Part shown: one piece after another, positions 7,843 through 47,982 of the stretch
How the letters are laid out: each line of letters starts with the position of its first letter
Position numbering within the stretch: the first letter of the stretch is position 1
Source of the DNA: Clostridia bacterium
GTDB taxonomy: Bacteria > Bacillota > Clostridia > Oscillospirales > Acutalibacteraceae
DNA: 48,271 bases
NCBI GenBank assembly: GCA_017466365.1
Contig: JAFTUG010000010.1
Coordinates: forward strand, 1 to 48,271
Direction: 5' to 3'
The notes under the pieces: generated by a model
What the model saw: only the letters and a program-made list of their open reading frames with translations
Told to the model about the DNA's origin: nothing
The model's database searches: none
Made by a program: the position numbers and the translations under genes

Positions 7843-7864
7843 ATGGATAATCAAACGGCAACAA

Positions 7865-7893
7865 CGTAGGGGCGACGTTTCGTCGCCCCTACG
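7865..7893. repeat. 13-bp palindrome with 3-nt loop
   Basis: The arms CGTAGGGGCGACG and CGTCGCCCCTACG are perfect, separated by TTT, with seven A residues after. It lies between a terminator and a box promoter, is much more GC-rich than its surroundings and is absent from the sister intergenic regions. It looks like a small mobile palindromic repeat or a second terminator. Confidence 0.8.
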
Positions 7894-7919
7894 AAAAAAA
7901 TTAAAAATTTTTCATTTCT

Positions 7920-7961
7920 GCACTAAAGTACAATGTGCAAACCGAAAAAAGGTGATAGAAT
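7920..7961 (+). promoter_or_regulatory. regulon promoter 2: activator box plus -10
   Basis: GCACTAAAGTACAATG (7920-7935), a 20-nt spacer and TAGAAT (7956-7961). The spacer is identical to promoter 1, so the whole promoter cassette is duplicated. Confidence 0.75.
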
Positions 7962-27224: not shown

Positions 27225-28412
27225 TTAGTCGAAGAATTTATCAAGGTCTTCTATGGCTTTGACTCTTTGTGACTGGATCAGATGAATATAATAGTTTTCG
27301 GTGATTTTTGAATTTGCGTGCCCGAGTAAATCCGAAACAACTCTCACTTCACATCCGTTTCTGAAGAGCATGGAAGCAAAAGTATGCCTGAGTGCATGCA
27401 CGCCGTAAGAGTGATCTTCGTCAGAAATGCCGATGTTTTTCAGAATATCTTTTAAAGATCTGGAGATGGTGTGTGGTTGCGGTTGCTTTAAATTTGCAGT
27501 TGCAACAACATACTTGCATTTTCCGTTTTGCTTCTTTAATTCTATAAGCATATCGTGTGTTTTTTGCGAAATCGGAATAACTCTTACACCGGCTTTGGTT
27601 TTGGGTCTGCTTTGAGTGACATGTTTATAATGACCGTCTGTTTTTACAACAACGGAGTTCTTGTTTATAATAATGTGATTATTTTTAAAATCAACATCAT
27701 TCCACGTCAAAGCGGACAGTTCACTTATTCTCATCCCCGTATACAACAAGAAAAGGATAGCCGGACCGTATCTGTACTTCAGACTTCCGGTGCCGTGCCT
27801 TTTCATTGCCTCTTTTTCGATAAGTTTGCACTGATCGGGAGTGAAAGCTTTGTAGTCGGATAAATCGTGTTCGATATTTTTAGGGAGAACGACTCCTTCG
27901 CACGGATTAATTCCCGCTTGATTTGTAACCCTGAAATGCCTCAGACAACCGCTTACAGCATTGAACGCTTTCTTTATGGTAGAATATGAGTAACCCTTAT
28001 CGAAAAGAGAGTTAATCATTTTCTGTATATCCATATATGTAATCTCGGTAATTGGAATGTCACCGATATAAGGATAGACCTGATAGTTCAGAGAGTTGCA
28101 TTTTGCAATGTAGCTTGTAGGTTTAAGTTTCATTTTTTCTGTGGTTATAAGCCAGTTTTCTGCATAGCTTTTAAAAGATAGTTCGGAGAAAAGCGGAAGA
28201 CCGTTCTTGGAAAATGCTTTGCTTTTATAGTCGCTAATTTTATCCATAAGAACGGAAATATCTTTTGCTGAAAAGGTTTTTCTTATCTTTTCACTTCTTG
28301 ATGTAAATTTAAGCTCTGCTCTCCAGCATTGTTTCTTTTGATCAAAATAAATTGATTCACCTTTATTTTTTTCTCTTAAGTTTTGTGATTTAGCCAAATG
28401 TTCACCATTCAT
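27225..28412 (-). CDS. int: tyrosine recombinase (island integrase)
   Basis: The N-terminus has an AP2-like/arm-binding segment (SIYFDQKKQCWRAELKF), then a SAM-like core-binding domain (about 75-165). The catalytic domain shows Arg in TGMRISEL (about 226), HALRHTF (about 340), LLGH and the nucleophile Tyr in ENYYIHL (about 374). The start is uncertain: an ATG at 28412 (395 aa) fits family length, while the open frame extends to 28514 without a clear ribosome binding site. It lies 160 nt from the duplicated tRNA-Cys end, the usual place for the integrase of a tRNA-targeting island. Confidence 0.93.
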   Translation of the reverse strand: MNGEHLAKSQNLREKNKGESIYFDQKKQCWRAELKFTSRSEKIRKTFSAKDISVLMDKISDYKSKAFSKNGLPLFSELSFKSYAENWLITTEKMKLKPTSYIAKCNSLNYQVYPYIGDIPITEITYMDIQKMINSLFDKGYSYSTIKKAFNAVSGCLRHFRVTNQAGINPCEGVVLPKNIEHDLSDYKAFTPDQCKLIEKEAMKRHGTGSLKYRYGPAILFLLYTGMRISELSALTWNDVDFKNNHIIINKNSVVVKTDGHYKHVTQSRPKTKAGVRVIPISQKTHDMLIELKKQNGKCKYVVATANLKQPQPHTISRSLKDILKNIGISDEDHSYGVHALRHTFASMLFRNGCEVRVVSDLLGHANSKITENYYIHLIQSQRVKAIEDLDKFFD

Positions 28413-28490
28413 AATCAAATTTTCAATTGAAAAAAACAGAATCCTAAGAAATATAGAGCAGAGGTCTTGAAAAACGTAACTTTTTAAAAT

Positions 28491-28507
28491 TACCAAACTT
28501 TTACCAT
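28491..28507. promoter_or_regulatory. possible integrase arm-binding site, right end
   Basis: ttaccaaacttttacca repeats the motif found at 327-350 and 637-653 at the other end of the island, the layout expected of arm-type sites for a tyrosine integrase. Confidence 0.5.
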
Positions 28508-28528
28508 ACCCCATGGTTTTTGAAACTC

Positions 28529-29143: not shown

Positions 29144-30196
29144 GTGCCGTTACAAATCATAAGACAAGATATAACCAAAATGAAGGTTGATGCGATTGTC
29201 AACACCACCAACGAAGAAATGGTAGGTTACAGCGGCGTTGACCTTGCTGTGCATACTGCCGCAGGTCCGATGCTTGATGCTGAATGCGCAAAAATCAGAC
29301 CTCTCGGTCTCGGAAATGCGAAGATTACGGGCGCATACAACCTCGATGCGAAGTATGTTATCCATACGTCGGGCCCTGTCTGGCACGGAGGACTGGTGGG
29401 TGAGAGCATCATTCTTAAGTCGTGTTACACGGAATCCCTTAAACTCGCCGTTGCAAACGGATGCGAATCCGTTGCATTTCCGCTGATTTCCGCAGGCGCT
29501 TACGGTTATCCGAAAGATCAGGTGCTGAAATTCGCAATTCAGGTTATCACAGAATTCCTTTTTGAACACGAACTTAACGTTTATCTCTGTGTTTATGACC
29601 GTAAATCCTATGAATTCAGCAGAACTGTTTTCAATGAAATCAGAAGTTTTATTGATGATAATTATGTTGAAGACTTAAAAGCGGATTACAATGCAGAAAT
29701 CGAATGGCTTGAATCGAGAGTCCTGCCCAATGAAATCAGACGCAGAGATCGTGAAACTCCTGCACCAAAGCTTTGTTCTTCAATGCCTGCACCTCAAACA
29801 GAAGAATACAGCAGTGTAAAGAACAAAACACTTGCAGAATATATGAAAGCAATGGATAAATCCTTTGCATACAAACTCTTTGACCTGATTGATTCAAAGG
29901 GAATGACCGACGTTGAGTGCTACAAAAAAGCCAACGTTGACAAGAAAACATTTTCCAAAATCAAGTGCAATCCCGATACATACAAGCCGTCAAAGCAGAC
30001 AGCCGTTGCATTCGCAATCGCACTTGAACTGACCCTTGATGAAACGCAGGATTTGCTTGCATCTGCAGGGCTGACGCTATCACGCAGTTTCACTTTTGAT
30101 AAGATAATCAGATATTATCTGCAAAAGGGTGTCTACGATATTTTTGAAATAAACGAAGCTCTGTTTGAATTTGACCAGGTGTTGTTGGGTTGCTGA
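29144..30196 (+). CDS. macrodomain protein with C-terminal helical/HTH-like domain
   Basis: GTG start after GAGGTGA. 350 aa. Residues 1-180 are a macrodomain: IVNTTNEEM...GVDLAVHTAAG, ITGAYNLDAKYVIHT and PLISAGAYGYPKDQ, the ADP-ribose-binding loops. Residues about 225-350 form a helical domain with TFSKIKCNPDTYKPSKQTAVAFAIAL, which has the feel of an XRE-like helix-turn-helix; this two-domain form recurs in Firmicutes. Macrodomains bind or remove ADP-ribose from proteins or nucleic acids. The next gene is an ADP-ribosylglycohydrolase, which supports that role. The C-terminal domain may regulate its own operon. Confidence 0.87.
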   Translation: MPLQIIRQDITKMKVDAIVNTTNEEMVGYSGVDLAVHTAAGPMLDAECAKIRPLGLGNAKITGAYNLDAKYVIHTSGPVWHGGLVGESIILKSCYTESLKLAVANGCESVAFPLISAGAYGYPKDQVLKFAIQVITEFLFEHELNVYLCVYDRKSYEFSRTVFNEIRSFIDDNYVEDLKADYNAEIEWLESRVLPNEIRRRDRETPAPKLCSSMPAPQTEEYSSVKNKTLAEYMKAMDKSFAYKLFDLIDSKGMTDVECYKKANVDKKTFSKIKCNPDTYKPSKQTAVAFAIALELTLDETQDLLASAGLTLSRSFTFDKIIRYYLQKGVYDIFEINEALFEFDQVLLGC

Positions 30197-30301
30197 AAAA
30201 GTCGCCCGTCGGGAGACCATATCAATTTAATAATATGCTATAGTGTGGTTGTAAGGTTGAGAAACCAAGCAACCACATTTTTATTTTTGGAGGACAAAAC
30301 A

Positions 30302-31093
30302 ATGACAGGTGCAATTATCGGCGACGTTGTCGGCTCGAGATTCGAGTTTGACAATTACAAATCAAAGGATTTTGAAATGTTCCATACGGAATGCGATTTT
30401 ACCGACGATTCGGTTATGACTCTCGCAATCGCAAAGGCACTCACTCAACACAAATCTATAACGGACTACGAAGCGTTCAAAACCGAGCTTGTTGAGGTTA
30501 TGCATGAGGTTGGCAGGAGATATCCTCAATGCGGTTTCGGCGGAAGATTTTTCGACTGGATTCTTTTCAGGCGTACAGAACCCTATAACAGTTACGGCAA
30601 CGGCTCTGCGATGAGGGTTTCTCCCGTCGGCTGGTTTGCGAAGTCGCTTTCAGAATGCGAAGAACTCGCAAAGGCAACTGCTGAAGTTACCCACAATCAC
30701 CCCGAAGGAATCAAGGGTGCGGTATCTGTTGCAGGTGCAATTTATCTTGCAAGAACGGATCACACAATGGATGAAATCAAAGAATACGTCAGCAAATTCT
30801 ATACGATTGATTTCACTCTCGACGAAATCCGTGAGGACTATGATTTCTATGAGATTTGCCAAAAATCCGTTCCTCAGGCATTTGAAGCCTTCTTTGAGTC
30901 AACAAGCTTTGAGGATACAATCAGAAACGCAATTTCCATTGGCGGTGACAGCGACACAATCGCCACAATCGCAGGTTCAATTGCCGAAGCATACTACGGT
31001 ATAAACGAAGATATGAAAGAAACGGCACTCTCATATCTTGACGACTATCTTCTTGAAATTGCCGAAAACTTCATTGAAAAATTTATGAAATAA
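30302..31093 (+). CDS. ADP-ribosylglycohydrolase (DraG/ARH family)
   Basis: The start at 30302 (263 aa) follows TTGGAGG; the ORF extends upstream without a ribosome binding site. Metal-binding motifs of the family are present: GAIIGDVVGS at the N-terminus, TDDSVMT (about 37-43), NGSAMR (about 100) and SIGGDSDTIA (about 216-225). It hydrolyses ADP-ribose from modified side chains or related substrates in the cytosol. It lies 105 nt after the macrodomain gene and 12 nt before a VWA gene, suggesting an ADP-ribose-handling operon. No ADP-ribosyltransferase is recognised nearby. Confidence 0.92.
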   Translation: MTGAIIGDVVGSRFEFDNYKSKDFEMFHTECDFTDDSVMTLAIAKALTQHKSITDYEAFKTELVEVMHEVGRRYPQCGFGGRFFDWILFRRTEPYNSYGNGSAMRVSPVGWFAKSLSECEELAKATAEVTHNHPEGIKGAVSVAGAIYLARTDHTMDEIKEYVSKFYTIDFTLDEIREDYDFYEICQKSVPQAFEAFFESTSFEDTIRNAISIGGDSDTIATIAGSIAEAYYGINEDMKETALSYLDDYLLEIAENFIEKFMK

Positions 31094-38773: not shown

Positions 38774-39826
38774 TTAATTTAAATCAAAAAATTTATTTGC
38801 AATACTGTTAAGCTGTGATGAAATCAGATTAAATGGTAAATTCAAATCAAGAGTTTTTACGCTGATTTTGTTGTTTCCCATTGTGTAATCGCAGTCCGGA
38901 CTGATTCTTTCGCTTGTTTTGGCATAAAGAAGCATACCGCCGACATTACCTGTTGATTCTTTGTCAAGATTTTTCACATAAGTGAATATCTGATATAGAT
39001 TATTAGAACGCAGAGTGTTTGCATCATACTGTGTCTGCCAAGCTTTTCCGTAATACTTCGTATCGATTATAAGAGTCTTTACTCCGTTTTTCAAAGTAAT
39101 ATCAGTCTGCATCGCAGGAAGGAAGATATCATTTTCGTCTTCTGCGATATCCCATTTGATCTGGTCTGCTCCGACTTTAAGCTGTGGAAAATGTTTACGG
39201 TAGTATTCAAGAACAAAATGCTCATACAGTCTGTGCATCTTCTGGTCATCAATAAATGATGCAATTTTATAAGAGCCTTTTTCTGTTGAAAGAAGCATAC
39301 CGTCAAGAATAAACCAGCAGATATTCATCAGCATTTTATAAGTCTGATTATTCCTGTGAAAGCGAAGCCTGTCCCATTTAATGAGAGACGGTTCAATACA
39401 ATCAATATCACCGAAAAACAGCAGATTCTTTTTGAGTGCAGACCGTCTTTCAGTGCTCACATTTGAATGCCGTATAAGTAAATCTGTGGTTGTTTTTATA
39501 ATCTGATTAAAAACATTGTTTTCTGTAAGCTCATCATGTTCGCAAGAAACAAGTTGTTTTCTTTGCAGCTTCTCTTTGACTGTACCGCCGATATCAAGTT
39601 TACCTTTTAGCACAGGTAATACTTCTTGCTTTGATATATATTCTTTATGCAAACCTTGTTTTAACTGCTGTGAAACAGCTTTTGAGAGTATTTCGGCAAA
39701 TAAATCATGAATGTTCTCAAAAGATTCCGCTTCAATGCTTTCGTAGTTTGACTGGCGGAGAACCTGAAAAGCATAAGTCAGCATATAATAGATGTTTTTT
39801 ATCAGAATTCCTTTATCCTCAGTCAT
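38774..39826 (-). CDS. mcrC: McrC-type nuclease subunit
   Basis: 350 aa. The PD-(D/E)XK core is visible: RLYEHFVLEYY (about 199-209), Asp242 in MQTDITL and IIDTKYYG with Asp255 and Lys257. Family features also include LKGKLDI near 74. McrC cuts DNA when driven by the McrB GTPase at modified cytosines. It overlaps mcrB by 8 bp, as expected for a stoichiometric complex. Confidence 0.93.
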   Translation of the reverse strand: MTEDKGILIKNIYYMLTYAFQVLRQSNYESIEAESFENIHDLFAEILSKAVSQQLKQGLHKEYISKQEVLPVLKGKLDIGGTVKEKLQRKQLVSCEHDELTENNVFNQIIKTTTDLLIRHSNVSTERRSALKKNLLFFGDIDCIEPSLIKWDRLRFHRNNQTYKMLMNICWFILDGMLLSTEKGSYKIASFIDDQKMHRLYEHFVLEYYRKHFPQLKVGADQIKWDIAEDENDIFLPAMQTDITLKNGVKTLIIDTKYYGKAWQTQYDANTLRSNNLYQIFTYVKNLDKESTGNVGGMLLYAKTSERISPDCDYTMGNNKISVKTLDLNLPFNLISSQLNSIANKFFDLN

Positions 39827-41780
39827 TCAAAACACCACGCAAGTTATTCTTCCAAGTAAGGAGTTTATCGTTATCATCAAACCAATATTCGCTGATCATC
39901 GGGATAATATCATATTCAACAATTTCACTTAACCAGTTATCGTCGGTTTCATTTTCGTGACCGCAGAAATAGCTGTGACCGATGCAGAAGCCTTTGCCGA
40001 GAGCTGAATCCTTACTTATAGCAGTATTCAATTCTTTGACTTTATCAACCAGTGCATCAAGAGTTTCATTTTCAAAAGATTTCTGATATTTTACAAATCC
40101 GTCCGATGTGAAGCCGGGTTCCATATCACAGAAGCTGAAACGGCGGCGAAGAGCATAGTCGATCATCGCAAGACTTCTGTCTGCAGTATTCATCATACCG
40201 ATTATGTAAAGATTGTTGGGTACACTGAAAGATAATCCGTTATATGCAAGAGTTGCTTTTGTTCCTCTGTAATCTTTTTCGATAAGCATAAGAAGCTCAC
40301 CGAAAATCTTACTCATATTTCCTCTGTTGATTTCATCAATAATGAAGAAATACTTTTCATTGGGATTGCTTTCTGCTTTCTTGCAGAAGTTATAGAAGAT
40401 ACCGTTTGTCAGTTTGAAAGAATCGCCATTCGGCTTGTATCCCATAATGAAATCTTCATATGAATAATTCTGATGGAACTGAACAAATTCAATTTTGCTG
40501 TCGTCTTTTTTACCCATAATTGAATATGCAAGACGCTTTGCGGCATACGTTTTACCGACACCGGGTGCACCCTGAAGGATAACATTCAATTTGTGATTCA
40601 GAAGAGAAACAAGAGAATCGTATTTTTCGGGAGAAATATACACGTCATTAAGGAAATCTTCCTTGGTGTATTTACTGTCATCAAAATAGTATTTTGATAT
40701 ATCAATTTCAGGTATTGGTTCTTTTTTTCTTTCTGCTGTTTTTATTCGAATCCATTTCAAATGAATTTTTTCAGCAAGTTCATGTGTCATGTTTACTTTC
40801 CAGCCAAGGTCAGTCAATGCCCAAACACCAGGTTGAGATTTATCCAATATACCTTCATACGCCAAATAATTTCGTGCCCAATCAATATTATTCAAAAGCT
40901 TACTTGTATTAGATTTTTCATTCTTTACAGCAAGCATCTCTTCTGAAATATTTTGCATCTCGATTATTTTCTGGTGCACATCTTTTCTTTTTGCACTTCC
41001 GCCAAGCTCTCTCAACGCCAATACAACAGGAGTATACCAATTTAAAACCTCTGCATTTGAAGAAAAATCGTCGATTTTTTCATCTGCAATGTATCTGCTG
41101 ATATAAAACCCTACATCAATCGCCATAGTCATAAATTTTTCATCAGGATAGCAGGTGTCATCGATTTCATCTTTCAGCATCTGAACAAGCTCTGCGTCTT
41201 CGCTGATTGCCTTACATATTTCGCCATAAAAATCAAGACCGGGAACAAAATTTTCAAGAGCATAACCCTTCTTGGCAATAAAATCACTTTCTGTAATTTT
41301 GGTCGCTTTGCTGATTTCAGAATATTTATAAATATAATATTTATCGGGATATCTGAGCCAAAGATATGTAGAGATTGCATTTACACCCTGATAATGTTGC
41401 TGCCACGAACCGGGATTATATTTGTCTTTAATTTCATCCGCAGCCGCAATGAAAGCTCTTATTCTTTCTGTTACATCTTTCGATTCATCATAAAGATTGA
41501 TGAACATTTCTCTTACCACTTCAGGGTCTTTTGTTGCAAATTCTTTAATCATTCCTCTCGGAAGATTGTTTTGAGATGCAAGAAGATTAAGAGTTTTGTC
41601 GGTTGCTTTCATAAACATATCAAGAAAATCAGGAGCGTTGATATCCCAAATATCCTGAAAACGCTTCACCGCAACCCACTTGTATTTCTCACCGTCATTT
41701 TTGGATTTGCCGTTAAAAAGCTCTTTGAATCTTTTCTTATAAGACGAAAGAATTACATCAAGTTTGTTTCTGTTTAACAT
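39819..41780 (-). CDS. mcrB: McrB-type AAA+ GTPase subunit with winged-helix insert
   Basis: 653 aa after GAAGGGG. Residues 1-240 are a target-recognition-type N-terminal domain of the Firmicutes kind, not an EVE or DUF3578 domain I can recognise. Residues about 245-330 resemble the Mrr N-terminal winged helix. The AAA+ motor has Walker A GAPGVGKT (404-411), Walker B FFIIDEINR (478-486), the McrB signature MNTADRS (530-536) and arginine-rich ALRRRFSF (543-550). It recognises modified DNA and translocates using GTP, with McrC as nuclease. First gene of its operon. Confidence 0.94.
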   Translation of the reverse strand: MLNRNKLDVILSSYKKRFKELFNGKSKNDGEKYKWVAVKRFQDIWDINAPDFLDMFMKATDKTLNLLASQNNLPRGMIKEFATKDPEVVREMFINLYDESKDVTERIRAFIAAADEIKDKYNPGSWQQHYQGVNAISTYLWLRYPDKYYIYKYSEISKATKITESDFIAKKGYALENFVPGLDFYGEICKAISEDAELVQMLKDEIDDTCYPDEKFMTMAIDVGFYISRYIADEKIDDFSSNAEVLNWYTPVVLALRELGGSAKRKDVHQKIIEMQNISEEMLAVKNEKSNTSKLLNNIDWARNYLAYEGILDKSQPGVWALTDLGWKVNMTHELAEKIHLKWIRIKTAERKKEPIPEIDISKYYFDDSKYTKEDFLNDVYISPEKYDSLVSLLNHKLNVILQGAPGVGKTYAAKRLAYSIMGKKDDSKIEFVQFHQNYSYEDFIMGYKPNGDSFKLTNGIFYNFCKKAESNPNEKYFFIIDEINRGNMSKIFGELLMLIEKDYRGTKATLAYNGLSFSVPNNLYIIGMMNTADRSLAMIDYALRRRFSFCDMEPGFTSDGFVKYQKSFENETLDALVDKVKELNTAISKDSALGKGFCIGHSYFCGHENETDDNWLSEIVEYDIIPMISEYWFDDNDKLLTWKNNLRGVLND

Positions 41781-43772: not shown

Positions 43773-43872
43773 GCTTATATCTGAATCGGCAACAGGCAGG
43801 TGTGCCTGTCCCTGCATTTCTTTTGACCCAAAGGGTGCGTAGTAACACTGAATTTCTACTTCCGATGCCGTT

Positions 43873-44160
43873 TCATTCTTCATCTTCATTTTCTTCAACT
43901 TCTTCAATCAACGATTCGATTTCATCAAGATGCTCCCCGATATCATCGAGTGCATCGTCCCATTTATCATAAACATCTTTACTTATATTTTCGGGAACAG
44001 CATCCGTAAGTTCTTCAAGTTTCCCTTTGATTTCATCAAATCTTTCAACCAGATCTTCAATAATATCTTTGATTGACTCTGCGGTAAGTTCGCTTTCATC
44101 GGCAATTCTTATTCTGATTTTTGTGGTGTTGATGTGTTTCTTTGTTACTCTTTCGTCCAT
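43873..44160 (-). CDS. small acidic coiled-coil protein, third gene of the retron operon
   Basis: GGAGAATTATC precedes the ATG at 44160. 95 aa; the first 25 residues are basic and beta-like (HINTTKIRIRI), and the rest is highly acidic and helical (DIIEDLVERFDEIKGKLEEL; ending EEVEENEDEE). It starts 15 nt after the 158-aa gene. Its small size and extreme acidity recall nucleic-acid mimics or antitoxins, but there is no known family match that I can name. Confidence 0.75.
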   Translation of the reverse strand: MDERVTKKHINTTKIRIRIADESELTAESIKDIIEDLVERFDEIKGKLEELTDAVPENISKDVYDKWDDALDDIGEHLDEIESLIEEVEENEDEE

Positions 44161-44175
44161 GATAATTCTCCATTA

Positions 44176-44652
44176 TTAAAACACTATATTTGCAGAATAT
44201 TCGGTTATAAGAATAACCGATATACTTATGCCGTATTTTCTGCGAAGAATCTCGAAGCTTTCTTCGTATTCTTTGAAATCCTTGCTGTCCCAGAAGTTTG
44301 TCAGCATCACCATTTCGCGAATTCGGTCACCGTATTTTATGCCGTGGTTAACCATTGCGGTCAGAGTCTGTCGGAATGAATTTTTCTTGTTGCAGATTGT
44401 GAGAAATGAAGGGTGAATCATATTTGTTGCATCACCGAAAGGATAAGTATTTACTTGATGAGGATAACCAAGGGTATTGTTTATGACTTTTCCCAATGCC
44501 TTCGGATTCAGCATATCGCCCAAGGGGACTTCACAGCTGAGAACTGCGCCGATACAAGATATGAGATTGGAATCCGTTTCCAGCTTTCTGAAAACTCCGC
44601 TTAAATCTTCTCTTATTTTTTCGCGTTTTGAAAACTCATCTTTAAAATACAT
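44176..44652 (-). CDS. retron-associated protein, unassigned
   Basis: 158 aa, starting inside the 3' end of the reverse transcriptase gene (40-bp overlap in another frame; a GAAGAA-type ribosome binding site just upstream). Mostly helical by eye, with LISCIGAVLSCEVPLGDMLNPKALGKVINNTLG in the middle and a hydrophobic C-terminus (ISVILITEYSANIVF). No ATPase, TOPRIM, HNH, NDT or transmembrane motif of the familiar retron effectors is visible. By position it is the leading candidate for the retron effector. Confidence 0.78.
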   Translation of the reverse strand: MYFKDEFSKREKIREDLSGVFRKLETDSNLISCIGAVLSCEVPLGDMLNPKALGKVINNTLGYPHQVNTYPFGDATNMIHPSFLTICNKKNSFRQTLTAMVNHGIKYGDRIREMVMLTNFWDSKDFKEYEESFEILRRKYGISISVILITEYSANIVF

Positions 44653-45665
44653 ATTTCTTCCTTCTCCTTCTTTATGATTTCTTTTATGAATTCAGCATAT
44701 TGCTTCATTTCGGTATTATCGGGGTCTGCGCACAGACAGAATGAAATCCTACCTTGCAACGTTCTGAGATACCGTAGTTTCACCATGCGAAAATGCCAAT
44801 CGTCTGCTATAAACATCACCCAACCGCCGTATTCTGAACTCTGTAAGTGCCTGATATGATCCGAAACACCGAATTTCCCGATATAGTATACCGCTTGCCG
44901 TATATTTCGGCGGAGTTCTTTATCAACAGACGTTTTTTCGTTGACAACCAGACCCGTTACCTTCTGCTTTTTGTTGCTTGTTACAACAAATATTTTTTTC
45001 TGATTAAGAGGTAAACCGTTTGCATAAAGTCCCAGAAAATTTCTTGTGACACGGATAAGACGGGTTTTATCAAAAGAATCAAAAGAAAAAGTAATATCAT
45101 CGCTGTATCGGGTGTAGGAGATGTTTTTGTTTTCGCAGAAAAGGCTCATTTCACGGTCAAATTTTTTCATAAACAGGTTTGAGAGATACGGCGAAGTCGG
45201 TGCGCCCGTGGGAAGTCTGCCTTTTAAGCAACAGAGTTTTGTGAGCATTCTGCAGACATCGGGCGGATAAGAAAGTCTGCGGAAAATCAGATATACGGAT
45301 TTTTCATCGATATGCTCAAAAAATCTTTTGATATCAAGTTTCACAACACATTTTCTTCCGCAATGAGCACCTGCATTATCCCTTAAAGAACTGCCTTTTA
45401 TATATGCCCTTGCGCTGTTGTGAACGGGAATATTTTCAAGAATGCGTTTAAGGATAATCCGCTGAATAATTTTCAGACCCTGGCTTGGCACATCAACGTT
45501 TCTTACCTTGCCGTTTTTCTGATATATCTGATTTCGACGGTAAAAATTCTGCGGATTGTTTGAAATGCGATAAATAAACGCCGTAAAAACTTCCTTGCTG
45601 ATATCTTCGCACCAATCTTCGTAAAGCAAATCAATCAGCGCTTTTTGTGAATTAAGATAAAGCAT
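44613..45665 (-). CDS. retron reverse transcriptase
   Basis: 350 aa; start at 45665 chosen for family length and GGGGGTG 7 nt upstream. Retron-specific NAxxH (N97-A-G-A-H101), catalytic Asp111 in VVKLDIKRFF, LPTGAPTSP (151-159), active site YSDD (187-190; Ser in place of the usual Ala) and VTGLVVN (236-242), the retron Y-region motif that recognises its own RNA. It has no maturase or nuclease domain. The ncRNA at about 45695-45847 lies directly upstream. It would make msDNA primed from a branch G of that RNA. Confidence 0.95.
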   Translation of the reverse strand: MLYLNSQKALIDLLYEDWCEDISKEVFTAFIYRISNNPQNFYRRNQIYQKNGKVRNVDVPSQGLKIIQRIILKRILENIPVHNSARAYIKGSSLRDNAGAHCGRKCVVKLDIKRFFEHIDEKSVYLIFRRLSYPPDVCRMLTKLCCLKGRLPTGAPTSPYLSNLFMKKFDREMSLFCENKNISYTRYSDDITFSFDSFDKTRLIRVTRNFLGLYANGLPLNQKKIFVVTSNKKQKVTGLVVNEKTSVDKELRRNIRQAVYYIGKFGVSDHIRHLQSSEYGGWVMFIADDWHFRMVKLRYLRTLQGRISFCLCADPDNTEMKQYAEFIKEIIKKEKEEICILKMSFQNAKK

Positions 45666-45672
45666 AAAAAAA

Positions 45673-45699
45673 CACCCCCGCAGCCGTGGTGCGGAGGTG
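45673..45699 (-). promoter_or_regulatory. terminator-like hairpin enclosing the RT ribosome binding site
   Basis: On the - strand CACCTCCGCA pairs with TGCGGGGGTG (10 bp, one G-T) and is followed by TTTTTTT and then the RT ATG. The ribosome binding site GGGGGTG lies in the 3' arm. The 5' arm shares 5 nt with a2 of the ncRNA, so the two structures compete. Confidence 0.75.
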
Positions 45700-45847
45700 G
45701 CACAATAACCTGTCGTGTGCATCAGTTTGAAAAACTGATGCCATTATACTCTTGCTTAACATCGGGCAGCGACTCGCTGCCGCCTGCATGCTTTTTGCAG
45801 GACCCTGCCTTTTCGCACCTCTTGGCTGCAAGGTCATAATACCACTT
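45695..45847 (-). ncRNA. retron msr-msd RNA
   Basis: Boundaries are set by inverted repeats a1 (AAGTGGTATTATGACCT, 45831-45847) and a2 (AGGTTATTGTGCCACCT, 45695-45711): 17 positions, 12 Watson-Crick and 3 wobble pairs. A candidate branch G follows a1 in TGCAGCC. Hairpins on the - strand: CCTGCA/TGCAGG (45783-45801), GGCAGCGA/TCGCTGCC (45765-45781) and a 10-bp GCATCAGTTT/AAACTGATGC hairpin (45719-45741), the last probably in msd. It lies between the nuclease stop and the RT start, the normal place for retron RNA. The exact msr/msd junction cannot be read. Confidence 0.85.
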
Positions 45848-45872: not shown

Positions 45873-46940
45873 TTACGGAAGAAGAGATAAAACAAAATCT
45901 GTCCACGAACAATTATTCTTATCGTATTTCGTTTCGGGGGTTGCTGTGTTTATAAAATTAAAGCACGAATAGTTCTGACCGTTCAAACGCTTATCTATTA
46001 TTTTTCTCGTTTCGGATATATACGCGAATCCGTTACGGTGTGATTGGCTTTCTTTCAGTGAAATGTAACCCAATTTTATTTTTTGATTTTCAGCTGAAAG
46101 TTTCTTGTATGAGTCTAACATTTTTTTCAATACAGGGCAGTTTTCAATATTAGAGTCATCATACAAAAAATCTGCTATTGAATGAATCATACCCGATGTT
46201 TTGAATTCAACAACGGCAACTACCTTTGATGGCTCAAAAATATTGAGATTCATAATGTTCACAGCGTTTTTTTCAACAATAAGTGCATCCCATTCGATTC
46301 CGTATCCGTCAATAAATGAGTTCGACGGTGAAACTTTATACGGAAGTTCTGCCGAATCAATAACCGCCTGCATATATTTGATAAAAATATTTGCAGTTAT
46401 GTTGCCGTGGAGCTTTTTTTTGTCGGAATTTTCTTCTGTTCTTGAATCTATCAACTTTGTGACTGTTTCGAATTCGTTGATTATTTTATCTTCATATGTT
46501 TCGGGAACAACAGGAATAATATCTTTTCCTTCAAGACAGAGTGCTTCATCAATTATTTCTTTTAAATTTTTATTGGTTATTAAATCGGTTAATGGCTGAG
46601 ATGCATTATACCCATTCTTTGTTAAATTTTTTTCCTTTATTCTTTGAACAGCATAATGTGACAATGCCGAAAGTTTCAGCTTTGCTTTTTTCTTATAAAC
46701 AGTGGCAGACGTTTTGAAAACATCCAAAACTTCAAGAACTGTTGCAACATATGCAATGGTTTCTGTTTCGCAAAAAACAACCTGATTTTCCTTTGGCCGG
46801 CAAATGTAAATATACAGCTTATCGCCTGACTCAAGTCGGTTTTTGGTATGAGAAATATCCCACACAACAATTCCGTCAGTATCAAATATATCCTGAACTG
46901 TTGTCAGATCGGGTTTGATTCTATAAATATATTCTGCCAT
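45873..46940 (-). CDS. EVE-like domain fused to PD-(D/E)XK nuclease
   Basis: Start 46940 (355 aa) follows GGAGG; the longer ORF start lacks one. Residues about 1-110 have an EVE/PUA-like pattern (YIYRIKP...TDGIVVWDISHTKNRLESGDKLYIYICRP), a fold that reads modified bases. Residues about 195-270 have the nuclease motif DGYGIEWDALIVEKN...VVAVVEFKTS (D, then ExK-type E-F-K), after a helical linker. It starts 1 nt after the WYL gene stop. A modification-sensitive nuclease is inferred. It ends 26 nt before the ncRNA a1 arm. Confidence 0.82.
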   Translation of the reverse strand: MAEYIYRIKPDLTTVQDIFDTDGIVVWDISHTKNRLESGDKLYIYICRPKENQVVFCETETIAYVATVLEVLDVFKTSATVYKKKAKLKLSALSHYAVQRIKEKNLTKNGYNASQPLTDLITNKNLKEIIDEALCLEGKDIIPVVPETYEDKIINEFETVTKLIDSRTEENSDKKKLHGNITANIFIKYMQAVIDSAELPYKVSPSNSFIDGYGIEWDALIVEKNAVNIMNLNIFEPSKVVAVVEFKTSGMIHSIADFLYDDSNIENCPVLKKMLDSYKKLSAENQKIKLGYISLKESQSHRNGFAYISETRKIIDKRLNGQNYSCFNFINTATPETKYDKNNCSWTDFVLSLLP

Positions 46941-46941
46941 A

Positions 46942-47982
46942 TTAACCTCCGTTGTATTTCTCATTCATTGCCTTGACCGCATCGGCAAGCGATTTGCGCA
47001 GCGATTCGGGTTCAAGTACTTCAACTCTTGTTCCGTACTGCATTGCCCAATGGAACATTGCGTTTTCGTTGACTTTAACGCTCACGTCAACGGTTTCTTC
47101 CGTTTCGTTTGAGAATTTAACCGCCGTGCCGAACCAGTCAACGATATCGTTGATTATATCTTTATCCGTTCTGAATTTAACCTTGACACTCTCACCGCAA
47201 TACATATAAATATGCTCCGCCATGTGCTTGGGCAAATCAAGACCGTTCTTGAGTCCGTTCACCTTTTTCATCGGTTTCACGGGTTCGTCAATAATTTCAA
47301 TATCAATGATTCTGTCGATTCTGTAATGGGAAACATTATCGAATTTATCGTAGTTACCGATGAGGTAATATCTGCCGTTTGAAGCAACCATCTGATAGGG
47401 ATTTATGATATATTCCGCAGGTTTTCCGTAATGAATACGCTTTTCTCTTTCAAGTTTAAGGTTGAAATCAGAATAGTGGAATTTAACCTTTTTGCCTTGT
47501 TCAATCGCTTCATCAAGAATGCCGATTGTGTAGAAAAGTTCTTTGTTTGAGGGCATGGTCACGGGCAGATTACGGACATGACGTACCTTTGCAGAAAAAT
47601 ATTTATTCGACTGTTTCTCAAGTTTTTCAATAAGTTCTTTACATTGAGAATAGGGAATATATTTTGAAAAAAGTATGCTGTCGATAAGCAGACGGAGTTC
47701 GCTGTCATCGAATGCACGGGTTATGTACCAATCGGAATAAACGGTTTCATCCTCACCGCTTTTTGTTTTGCGTGTACGCTCGGAATAGCCGACGTCAAAG
47801 CCCATATCTACCAAATCTGTCAGATTTCTTTTAACGGCTTTTCTATCGAGTTTCAATCCGTATTCGGATTCAAGCATATCCTGAATCTGTTTCTGAGTGA
47901 GAGTATGTTCGCTGTCGGTATGCTTTTTGAGAATATCGATAATGCAGAGAATTGCGGTTTTCTTTGAATTAGCCTGATACAT
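46942..47982 (-). CDS. WYL-domain transcriptional regulator
   Basis: GAGGTG precedes this 346-aa ORF. N-terminal winged helix-turn-helix (about 8-70, with TLTQKQIQDMLESEYGLKLDRKAVKRNL). The WYL domain follows (about 150-245): IINPYQMVASNGRYYLIGNYDKFDNVSHYRIDRI, where the classical W-Y-L triad is replaced by R-Y-Y-L. The C-terminal WCX extension is at about 255-340. WYL regulators often control phage-defence loci and sense nucleic-acid ligands. First gene of the nuclease-retron block. Confidence 0.93.
   Translation of the reverse strand: MYQANSKKTAILCIIDILKKHTDSEHTLTQKQIQDMLESEYGLKLDRKAVKRNLTDLVDMGFDVGYSERTRKTKSGEDETVYSDWYITRAFDDSELRLLIDSILFSKYIPYSQCKELIEKLEKQSNKYFSAKVRHVRNLPVTMPSNKELFYTIGILDEAIEQGKKVKFHYSDFNLKLEREKRIHYGKPAEYIINPYQMVASNGRYYLIGNYDKFDNVSHYRIDRIIDIEIIDEPVKPMKKVNGLKNGLDLPKHMAEHIYMYCGESVKVKFRTDKDIINDIVDWFGTAVKFSNETEETVDVSVKVNENAMFHWAMQYGTRVEVLEPESLRKSLADAVKAMNEKYNGG

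Follow-up and report, generated by a model that had tools for sequence, protein, structure and literature searches.

A 48,271-nt stretch of DNA from a Clostridia bacterium of the family Acutalibacteraceae (contig JAFTUG010000010.1; hereafter the window, to which all coordinates refer) carries on its minus strand a retron composed of a noncoding RNA (ncRNA) of the msr-msd type and a reverse transcriptase (RT). Reading along this strand, the order is a WYL-domain regulator, a 363-amino acid (aa) protein, the ncRNA, the RT, a 158-aa protein, a 95-aa acidic protein, a skipping-rope RNA and a two-way terminator-like hairpin (Table 1). With moderate confidence, we read the element as an Ec107-kind retron that stands alone, made of RNA and RT, and lies in an intergenic gap of a pre-existing operon for the WYL, 363-aa, 158-aa and 95-aa proteins; at the corresponding place, a palindromic terminator is found in a related species. 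The element is a genuine retron, as seen from its RT and from an RNA hairpin shared across its clade, and is predicted to produce multicopy single-stranded DNA (msDNA). The 158- and 95-aa proteins are probably not retron parts and belong to the surrounding operon, because a locus of the related species has their homologues in the same order and no RT; this operon is probably a defence-like unit.

The reverse transcriptase is closest to the Ec107-like and III-A profiles

The RT likely starts at 45665, and the NAxxH, YSDD and VTG motifs named in the initial annotation are all read in its open reading frame (ORF). Among PADLOC profiles it matches RT_Ec107-like best (3.4e-101) and RT_III-A next (1.8e-96), and it is 38% identical over 302 aa to the RT of the Escherichia coli pyrE-slmA retron; its codon score is near zero (log-likelihood ratio (LLR) per codon 0.021). 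Related loci were gathered from the family, where 34 of 398 genomes have an RT match (the window's own counted), and from a GTDB scan, giving 109 loci (29 from the family and the best 80 of 579 confirmed scan matches) with four duplicates among them; one locus from the same genus as the window (L015) shares its RT with L085.

In a tree of 103 RTs (7 of 110 rows, truncated, near-identical or duplicate, were left out here and in the tail count below), the window RT forms a long end branch (1.8) beside the fork between nine PRTase-carrying loci with their kin and the rest, the pyrE-RT-slmA element falling in the rest, across the fork from the PRTase-carrying loci. A 98% branch separates the window RT from the sampled III-A group. 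The phylogenetic placement suggested at the outset puts the RT beside this fork, on either side of which it may belong; by sequence it appears closest to the Ec107-like and III-A profiles.

Past the conserved G, the window RT has a tail of 45 aa, 15 more than the median of 30 among 102 relatives, four of which have a tail as long; the final residues of the window RT overlie the start of the 158-aa gene. Elsewhere in the clade, near the base of the tree, L004 (1357-2955; same RT as L043) has a 532-aa RT whose tail exceeds the median by about 165 residues and is possibly a fused effector; this RT stands behind a gene that looks DUF262-like by eye.

A clade-shared hairpin supports the msr-msd RNA

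The initial annotation had placed an msr-msd RNA with three clean hairpins directly upstream of the RT, and the hairpins are all recovered by folding (45783-45801, 45765-45781 and 45719-45741; whole-region fold z-score -2.73). The RNA itself stands by virtue of its clade-shared hairpin, while its bounds had to be revised to 45676..45833. A hairpin tipped by CGAGUCG occurs upstream of the RT in 85 of 107 related loci (81 of 103 once duplicates are removed; two of the 109 loci, with too little upstream DNA, were left out), and its stem shows two-sided changes at six of eight pairs among 35 aligned relatives. E. coli Ec107 itself has this hairpin, as do some III-A loci; a related msr hairpin is seen in L007 and L055, among others.

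Of 54 usable loci, 35 went into a covariance model; all of them had been picked for holding CGAGTCG, so that the invariance of the loop in the model is due to selection of the rows. It matched 22 of 27 family loci at an E-value of 0.1 or better (L003-L031 except L028 and L031; none is a row of the model, and some are close kin of training rows). The covariance search that had been proposed, run with this model of the relatives, matches the msr hairpin locally at E 0.067, the second best match in the 48-kb window. On the basis of the hairpin and its position, the window RNA is taken as homologous to the msr of the relatives.

The a1/a2 stem first proposed (about 45845-45831 with 45711-45697) has 14 of 15 standard pairs and an ungapped score of 26, against a shuffle mean of 23.75 (standard deviation 3.1, n = 60); it was rejected because, when the two flanking segments (57 and 50 nt) were shuffled, 991 of 1000 trials contained a duplex that matched or exceeded its stability of -18.6 kcal/mol. 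The best duplex between these two segments reaches -35.0 kcal/mol and is equalled by 44 of 1000 shuffles; the revised a1/a2, which begins about 12 nt further in, is much stronger than the earlier stem, yet only moderately above chance. Its a1 starts just past a TATTAT, and 31 nt remain up to the conserved CGAGUCG; this distance varies among relatives and is 29-34 in L003, L041, L044, L053 and L077, among others. Also discarded were an a1 ending at ATAGC (45849), with a duplex of only -8.3 kcal/mol, and two candidate rules for the clade: of 41 loci with strong stems, 8 have a T-tract immediately behind a2 and 14 have a TANNWT box shortly ahead of a1.

Bases shared by a2, the terminator-like hairpin with its T7 and the Shine-Dalgarno-like GGGGGTG of the RT (45666-45699) possibly form an attenuation switch that sets the ending of the ncRNA against expression of the RT. 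The ncRNA would fold with the revised a1/a2, and the RT would prime at a G just after a1 and copy the short msd into branched msDNA, with no dedicated effector needed, as in Ec107. The RT runs on for about 15 residues beyond the end usual in relatives and reaches into the 158-aa gene, as though insertion had cost it its own stop.

Among the relatives, three Ruminococcus loci (L039, L035 and L052) form a tight RT subclade, and their upstream RNAs have a common TTTTGTGCCG motif at a2 and similar msd segments.

A counterpart locus without RT in a related species

Another species of the genus (genome G1134), reached through its WYL protein, encodes on one contig of 69,369 bases, in this order, the WYL regulator, the 363-aa protein, a 165-aa protein, a 294-aa protein that is lipoprotein-like by eye, and a 95-aa acidic protein. 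This locus has no retron RT, and the only RT match of the genome at E 1e-5 or better lies elsewhere, with 31% identity over a part. Identity to the window is 94% for the WYL regulator, 81% for the 363-aa protein and 65-68% for the acidic protein; the 165-aa protein is 25% identical to the 158-aa protein over 150 aa, a score reached by none of 2000 shuffles. The 363-, 158- and 95-aa families each occur in the same two of 45 genomes of the genus, one of which is without this retron. The tripartite unit with accessory proteins is not supported in the form put forward in the initial annotation, given this co-occurrence and the homologues of both small proteins standing in the same order in an RT-less locus.

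On the left, the two loci are identical over the 363-aa stop codon and the 23 bases behind it (ending in TTTTGCACCCATA); past this junction, G1134 continues with a palindrome and T8 (-16.1 kcal/mol), followed by the 165-aa gene. On the right, the slot cannot be aligned up to the start codon of the acidic gene (44160), and because similarity resumes there this gene lies outside the exchanged segment, which comprises ncRNA, RT and 158-aa gene in the window (1689 bp) versus palindrome, 165-aa gene and lipoprotein-like gene in G1134 (1486 bp). By this comparison the retron stands where one RT-less counterpart has a palindromic intergenic sequence, the direction of the change not being polarised.

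Ec107 is described as having taken the place of a palindromic intergenic sequence of 34 bp, no trace of a mobility element being evident (PMC6868368). Comparing one E. coli genome with the element and one without, we find in the latter a palindrome (-18.2 kcal/mol) between pyrE and slmA; DNA like the pyrE-slmA element occurs in 373 of 5426 complete genomes. The loci of the window and G1134 look like another, distantly related pair of sites, one filled and one empty, with the Ec107 palindrome signature, in a genus of Bacillota.

The two small genes downstream of the RT

As first noted, the 158-aa ORF overlaps the RT by 40 nt and the 95-aa protein is very acidic (Table 1). Both small ORFs score as coding (LLR per codon 0.129 for the 158-aa and 0.578 for the 95-aa protein; 11 of 11 tested shadow ORFs are negative), and both are preceded by Shine-Dalgarno-like leaders. 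The absence of common effector motifs from them also holds as far as it was tested: profile libraries gave only sub-threshold matches, at chance level for the 158-aa protein and mostly of the coiled-coil type for the acidic one. That the latter is an inhibitor or mimic is an idea drawn solely from its charge.

Searches with the single 158-aa sequence returned only the window's own copy in 300 family and 391 class genomes and nothing in plasmids or phages, and exact 8-residue patterns, which distant kin would escape, found only the window itself in IMG/VR and GTDB. With two-row profiles, two weak matches in 310 family genomes (E 0.004 with an internal stop; E 0.006 in a 53-aa frame) were taken as chance, as was a match of the family in genome G228 (E 0.009, with two TGA and one TAA inside). 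Sequence searches of the PDB gave nothing significant for the 158-aa or the 363-aa protein (best E 0.33 with two-row profiles). The structure prediction proposed for the 158-aa protein yielded a predicted beta-alpha-beta-alpha-beta arrangement in the C-terminal half; no fold family in the resulting list was clear of background.

A search of the 109 RT loci for homologues of the 363-, 158- and 95-aa proteins found none (best E 1.1 and 1.8; the 95-aa protein gave no match). Of the 106 loci in which the RT is followed by 400 nt or more, 74 lack a same-strand ORF of at least 60 aa starting between -90 and +60 nt from the RT end. A general position of the clade behind same-strand genes or between convergent ones was considered and dropped: in 84 loci, 48 of 77 upstream genes lie on the RT strand (p 0.040) and 38 of 82 downstream genes are convergent (p 0.58).

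Comparison with known retrons

Retron-Eco5 (Ec107) of E. coli, located between pyrE and slmA, resembles the window element in its RT (38% identity), in the same CGAGUCG msr hairpin and in a site that is palindromic in relatives. In contrast, the window RT has a longer tail that overlaps the next gene and sits on a long separate branch, the RNA between a1 and a2 is shorter, and the neighbours are an accessory operon as opposed to housekeeping genes.

Type III-A retrons have PRTase and winged-helix partners. The window element approaches them in its RT profile match, nearly as good as that to the Ec107-like profile, and in its related msr hairpin; unlike them, it has no PRTase or winged-helix gene, no match to either being found in the ORFs adjoining the RT with a library that finds both upstream of the RT in L007 (PADLOC PRTase_III-A 1.5e-72, WH_III-A 3.1e-16), the locus that seeded the PRTase label of the tree.

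Retron-Sda1 is a III-A1-like retron whose adjoining HipA/DUF3037 genes are reported to defend without RT or ncRNA (PMC12548924). It is similar to the window element in having a type III-related RT without PRTase or winged-helix partner beside a different system, and it differs in its neighbours and in that the window locus is known from sequence alone. The window locus would likewise show that genes adjoining a retron RT can be bystanders, as reported for Retron-Sda1, which bears on every scan that takes an RT and its adjacent ORFs for one system.

Alternative explanations

Several observations weigh against a stand-alone retron inserted into an older operon. The insertion is not clean: the whole slot differs, G1134 has the extra lipoprotein-like gene, and the 158-aa protein shares only 25% identity with its counterpart, against 65-94% for its neighbours. 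The overlap of the RT and 158-aa genes is equally expected of a true retron operon, and with two loci only, G1134 may have lost the retron. A tree in which the window RT is joined to III-A is not rejected (approximately unbiased test, p-AU 0.417). Finally, the top match of the covariance model in the window lies at 7859-7934 (minus strand; E 0.02), a long way from the one place in the genome that matches this RT; we regard this hit as probably due to chance.

The unclean slot and the gene overlap would fit a new type of retron with the 158-aa protein as its effector, in which ncRNA, RT and 158-aa gene entered the slot as one module and the RT and msDNA keep the protein inactive until infection. 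We hold this to be a tentative possibility, the 165-aa homologue in the RT-less locus speaking for a host-operon gene. The 158-aa protein could, however, have been captured by the retron, because of the 40-nt overlap and a divergence far above that of the neighbours. A nascent tripartite retron of this kind, in which an Ec107-kind retron replaced the terminator of a restriction-like operon, its RT became translationally coupled with the next gene and the nuclease-fold product of that gene was captured as an effector, an RT-free cousin persisting in a sister species, is rather unlikely; if true, it would show how effector-less retrons gain effectors.

It is improbable that the WYL, 363-aa, retron, 158-aa and 95-aa genes together form a single composite system of defence in which the 363-aa protein would be the nuclease effector. 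All genes are on one strand, a good promoter-like site precedes the WYL gene and none is listed on the same strand between the 363-aa gene and the ncRNA (in a scan that as a whole is at chance level), and WYL genes lie near the RT in 4 of 109 relatives; but the 363-aa and WYL proteins are conserved in the retron-free locus, and no homologue of the 363-aa protein stands beside the WYL gene in those four loci (L077, L105, L107 and L010). Least probable of all is a retron ancestral to the operon that G1134 has lost, with the terminator, a diverged copy of the 158-aa gene and the lipoprotein-like gene now filling the slot: the two known loci give no direction, but the published account of Ec107 is of an insertion that took the place of a palindrome (PMC6868368), and the RT tail running past its usual end into the next gene suggests insertion.

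The surrounding operon and its genomic context

Table 1. Features of the retron locus and the surrounding operon.
Feature	Position	Strand	Remarks
Promoter-like TTGACA-17-TATTAT before the WYL gene	48028-48000	-	Promoter scan total 12, against 13.0 from shuffles
WYL-domain regulator, head of the operon	46942..47982	-	Pfam WYL 2.7e-11, WCX 7.1e-09
363-aa protein (n363) of the surrounding operon	45873..46964	-	
Left junction, last base common with G1134	45850	-	Window then enters the retron ncRNA, G1134 the palindromic terminator
Candidate -10 element TATTAT just before revised a1	45836..45841	-	By eye; no good -35; absent from the promoter-scan list
Retron ncRNA, revised bounds	45676..45833	-	Clade-conserved hairpin and stronger a1/a2; putative, unmapped ends
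a1 (revised)	45808..45833	-	Duplex with 45697-45676, -32.8 kcal/mol
msr hairpin 1 (CCTGCA..TGCAGG)	45783..45801	-	Fold
msr hairpin GGCAGCGAGUCGCUGCC, common to the Ec107/III-A clade	45765..45781	-	CGAGTCG found nowhere else in the window
msd hairpin (GCATCAGTT..AACTGATGC)	45719..45741	-	Fold
a2 (revised)	45676..45697	-	Shares bases with the terminator-like hairpin; the two folds are mutually exclusive
Terminator-like hairpin then T7, directly before the RT start	45673..45699	-	Contains the Shine-Dalgarno-like GGGGGTG of the RT
Retron RT, 350 aa from the second ATG	44613..45665 (ORF open from 45722)	-	Motifs NAGAH, YSDD, VTG
158-aa protein (e158)	44176..44652	-	Overlaps the RT by 40 nt
95-aa acidic protein (a95)	43873..44160	-	Net charge -22
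Skipping-rope RNA (RF02924), 3' end of the operon, directly behind the acidic gene	43788..43869	-	53.3 bits, gathering 36.7

The 363-aa protein has no match over the cut-off in the profile libraries; by eye, and confirmed by no tool, it shows an EVE-like N-terminal part and a PD-(D/E)XK-like EWD..EFK motif, and its structure model (predicted local distance difference test score, pLDDT, 35.6) was unusable and not used. At the other end of the operon, the skipping-rope RNA stands ahead of the two-way terminator-like hairpin; none of the literature matches listed for its name concerned an RNA.

The right half of the contig resembles a defence or mobile island truncated at the contig end, with an integrase and macro-domain, ADP-ribosylglycohydrolase-like and McrC-like proteins (names by eye) together with a McrB-like AAA protein at 27225-28514, 29144-31093 and 38774-41780. 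WYL regulators are reported to be linked to defence islands (PMC9122601). Those near related retron RTs in L010, L077, L105 and L107 are 37-54% identical to the WYL protein of the window, and in L107 the WYL gene overlaps the end of the RT by 4 bp.
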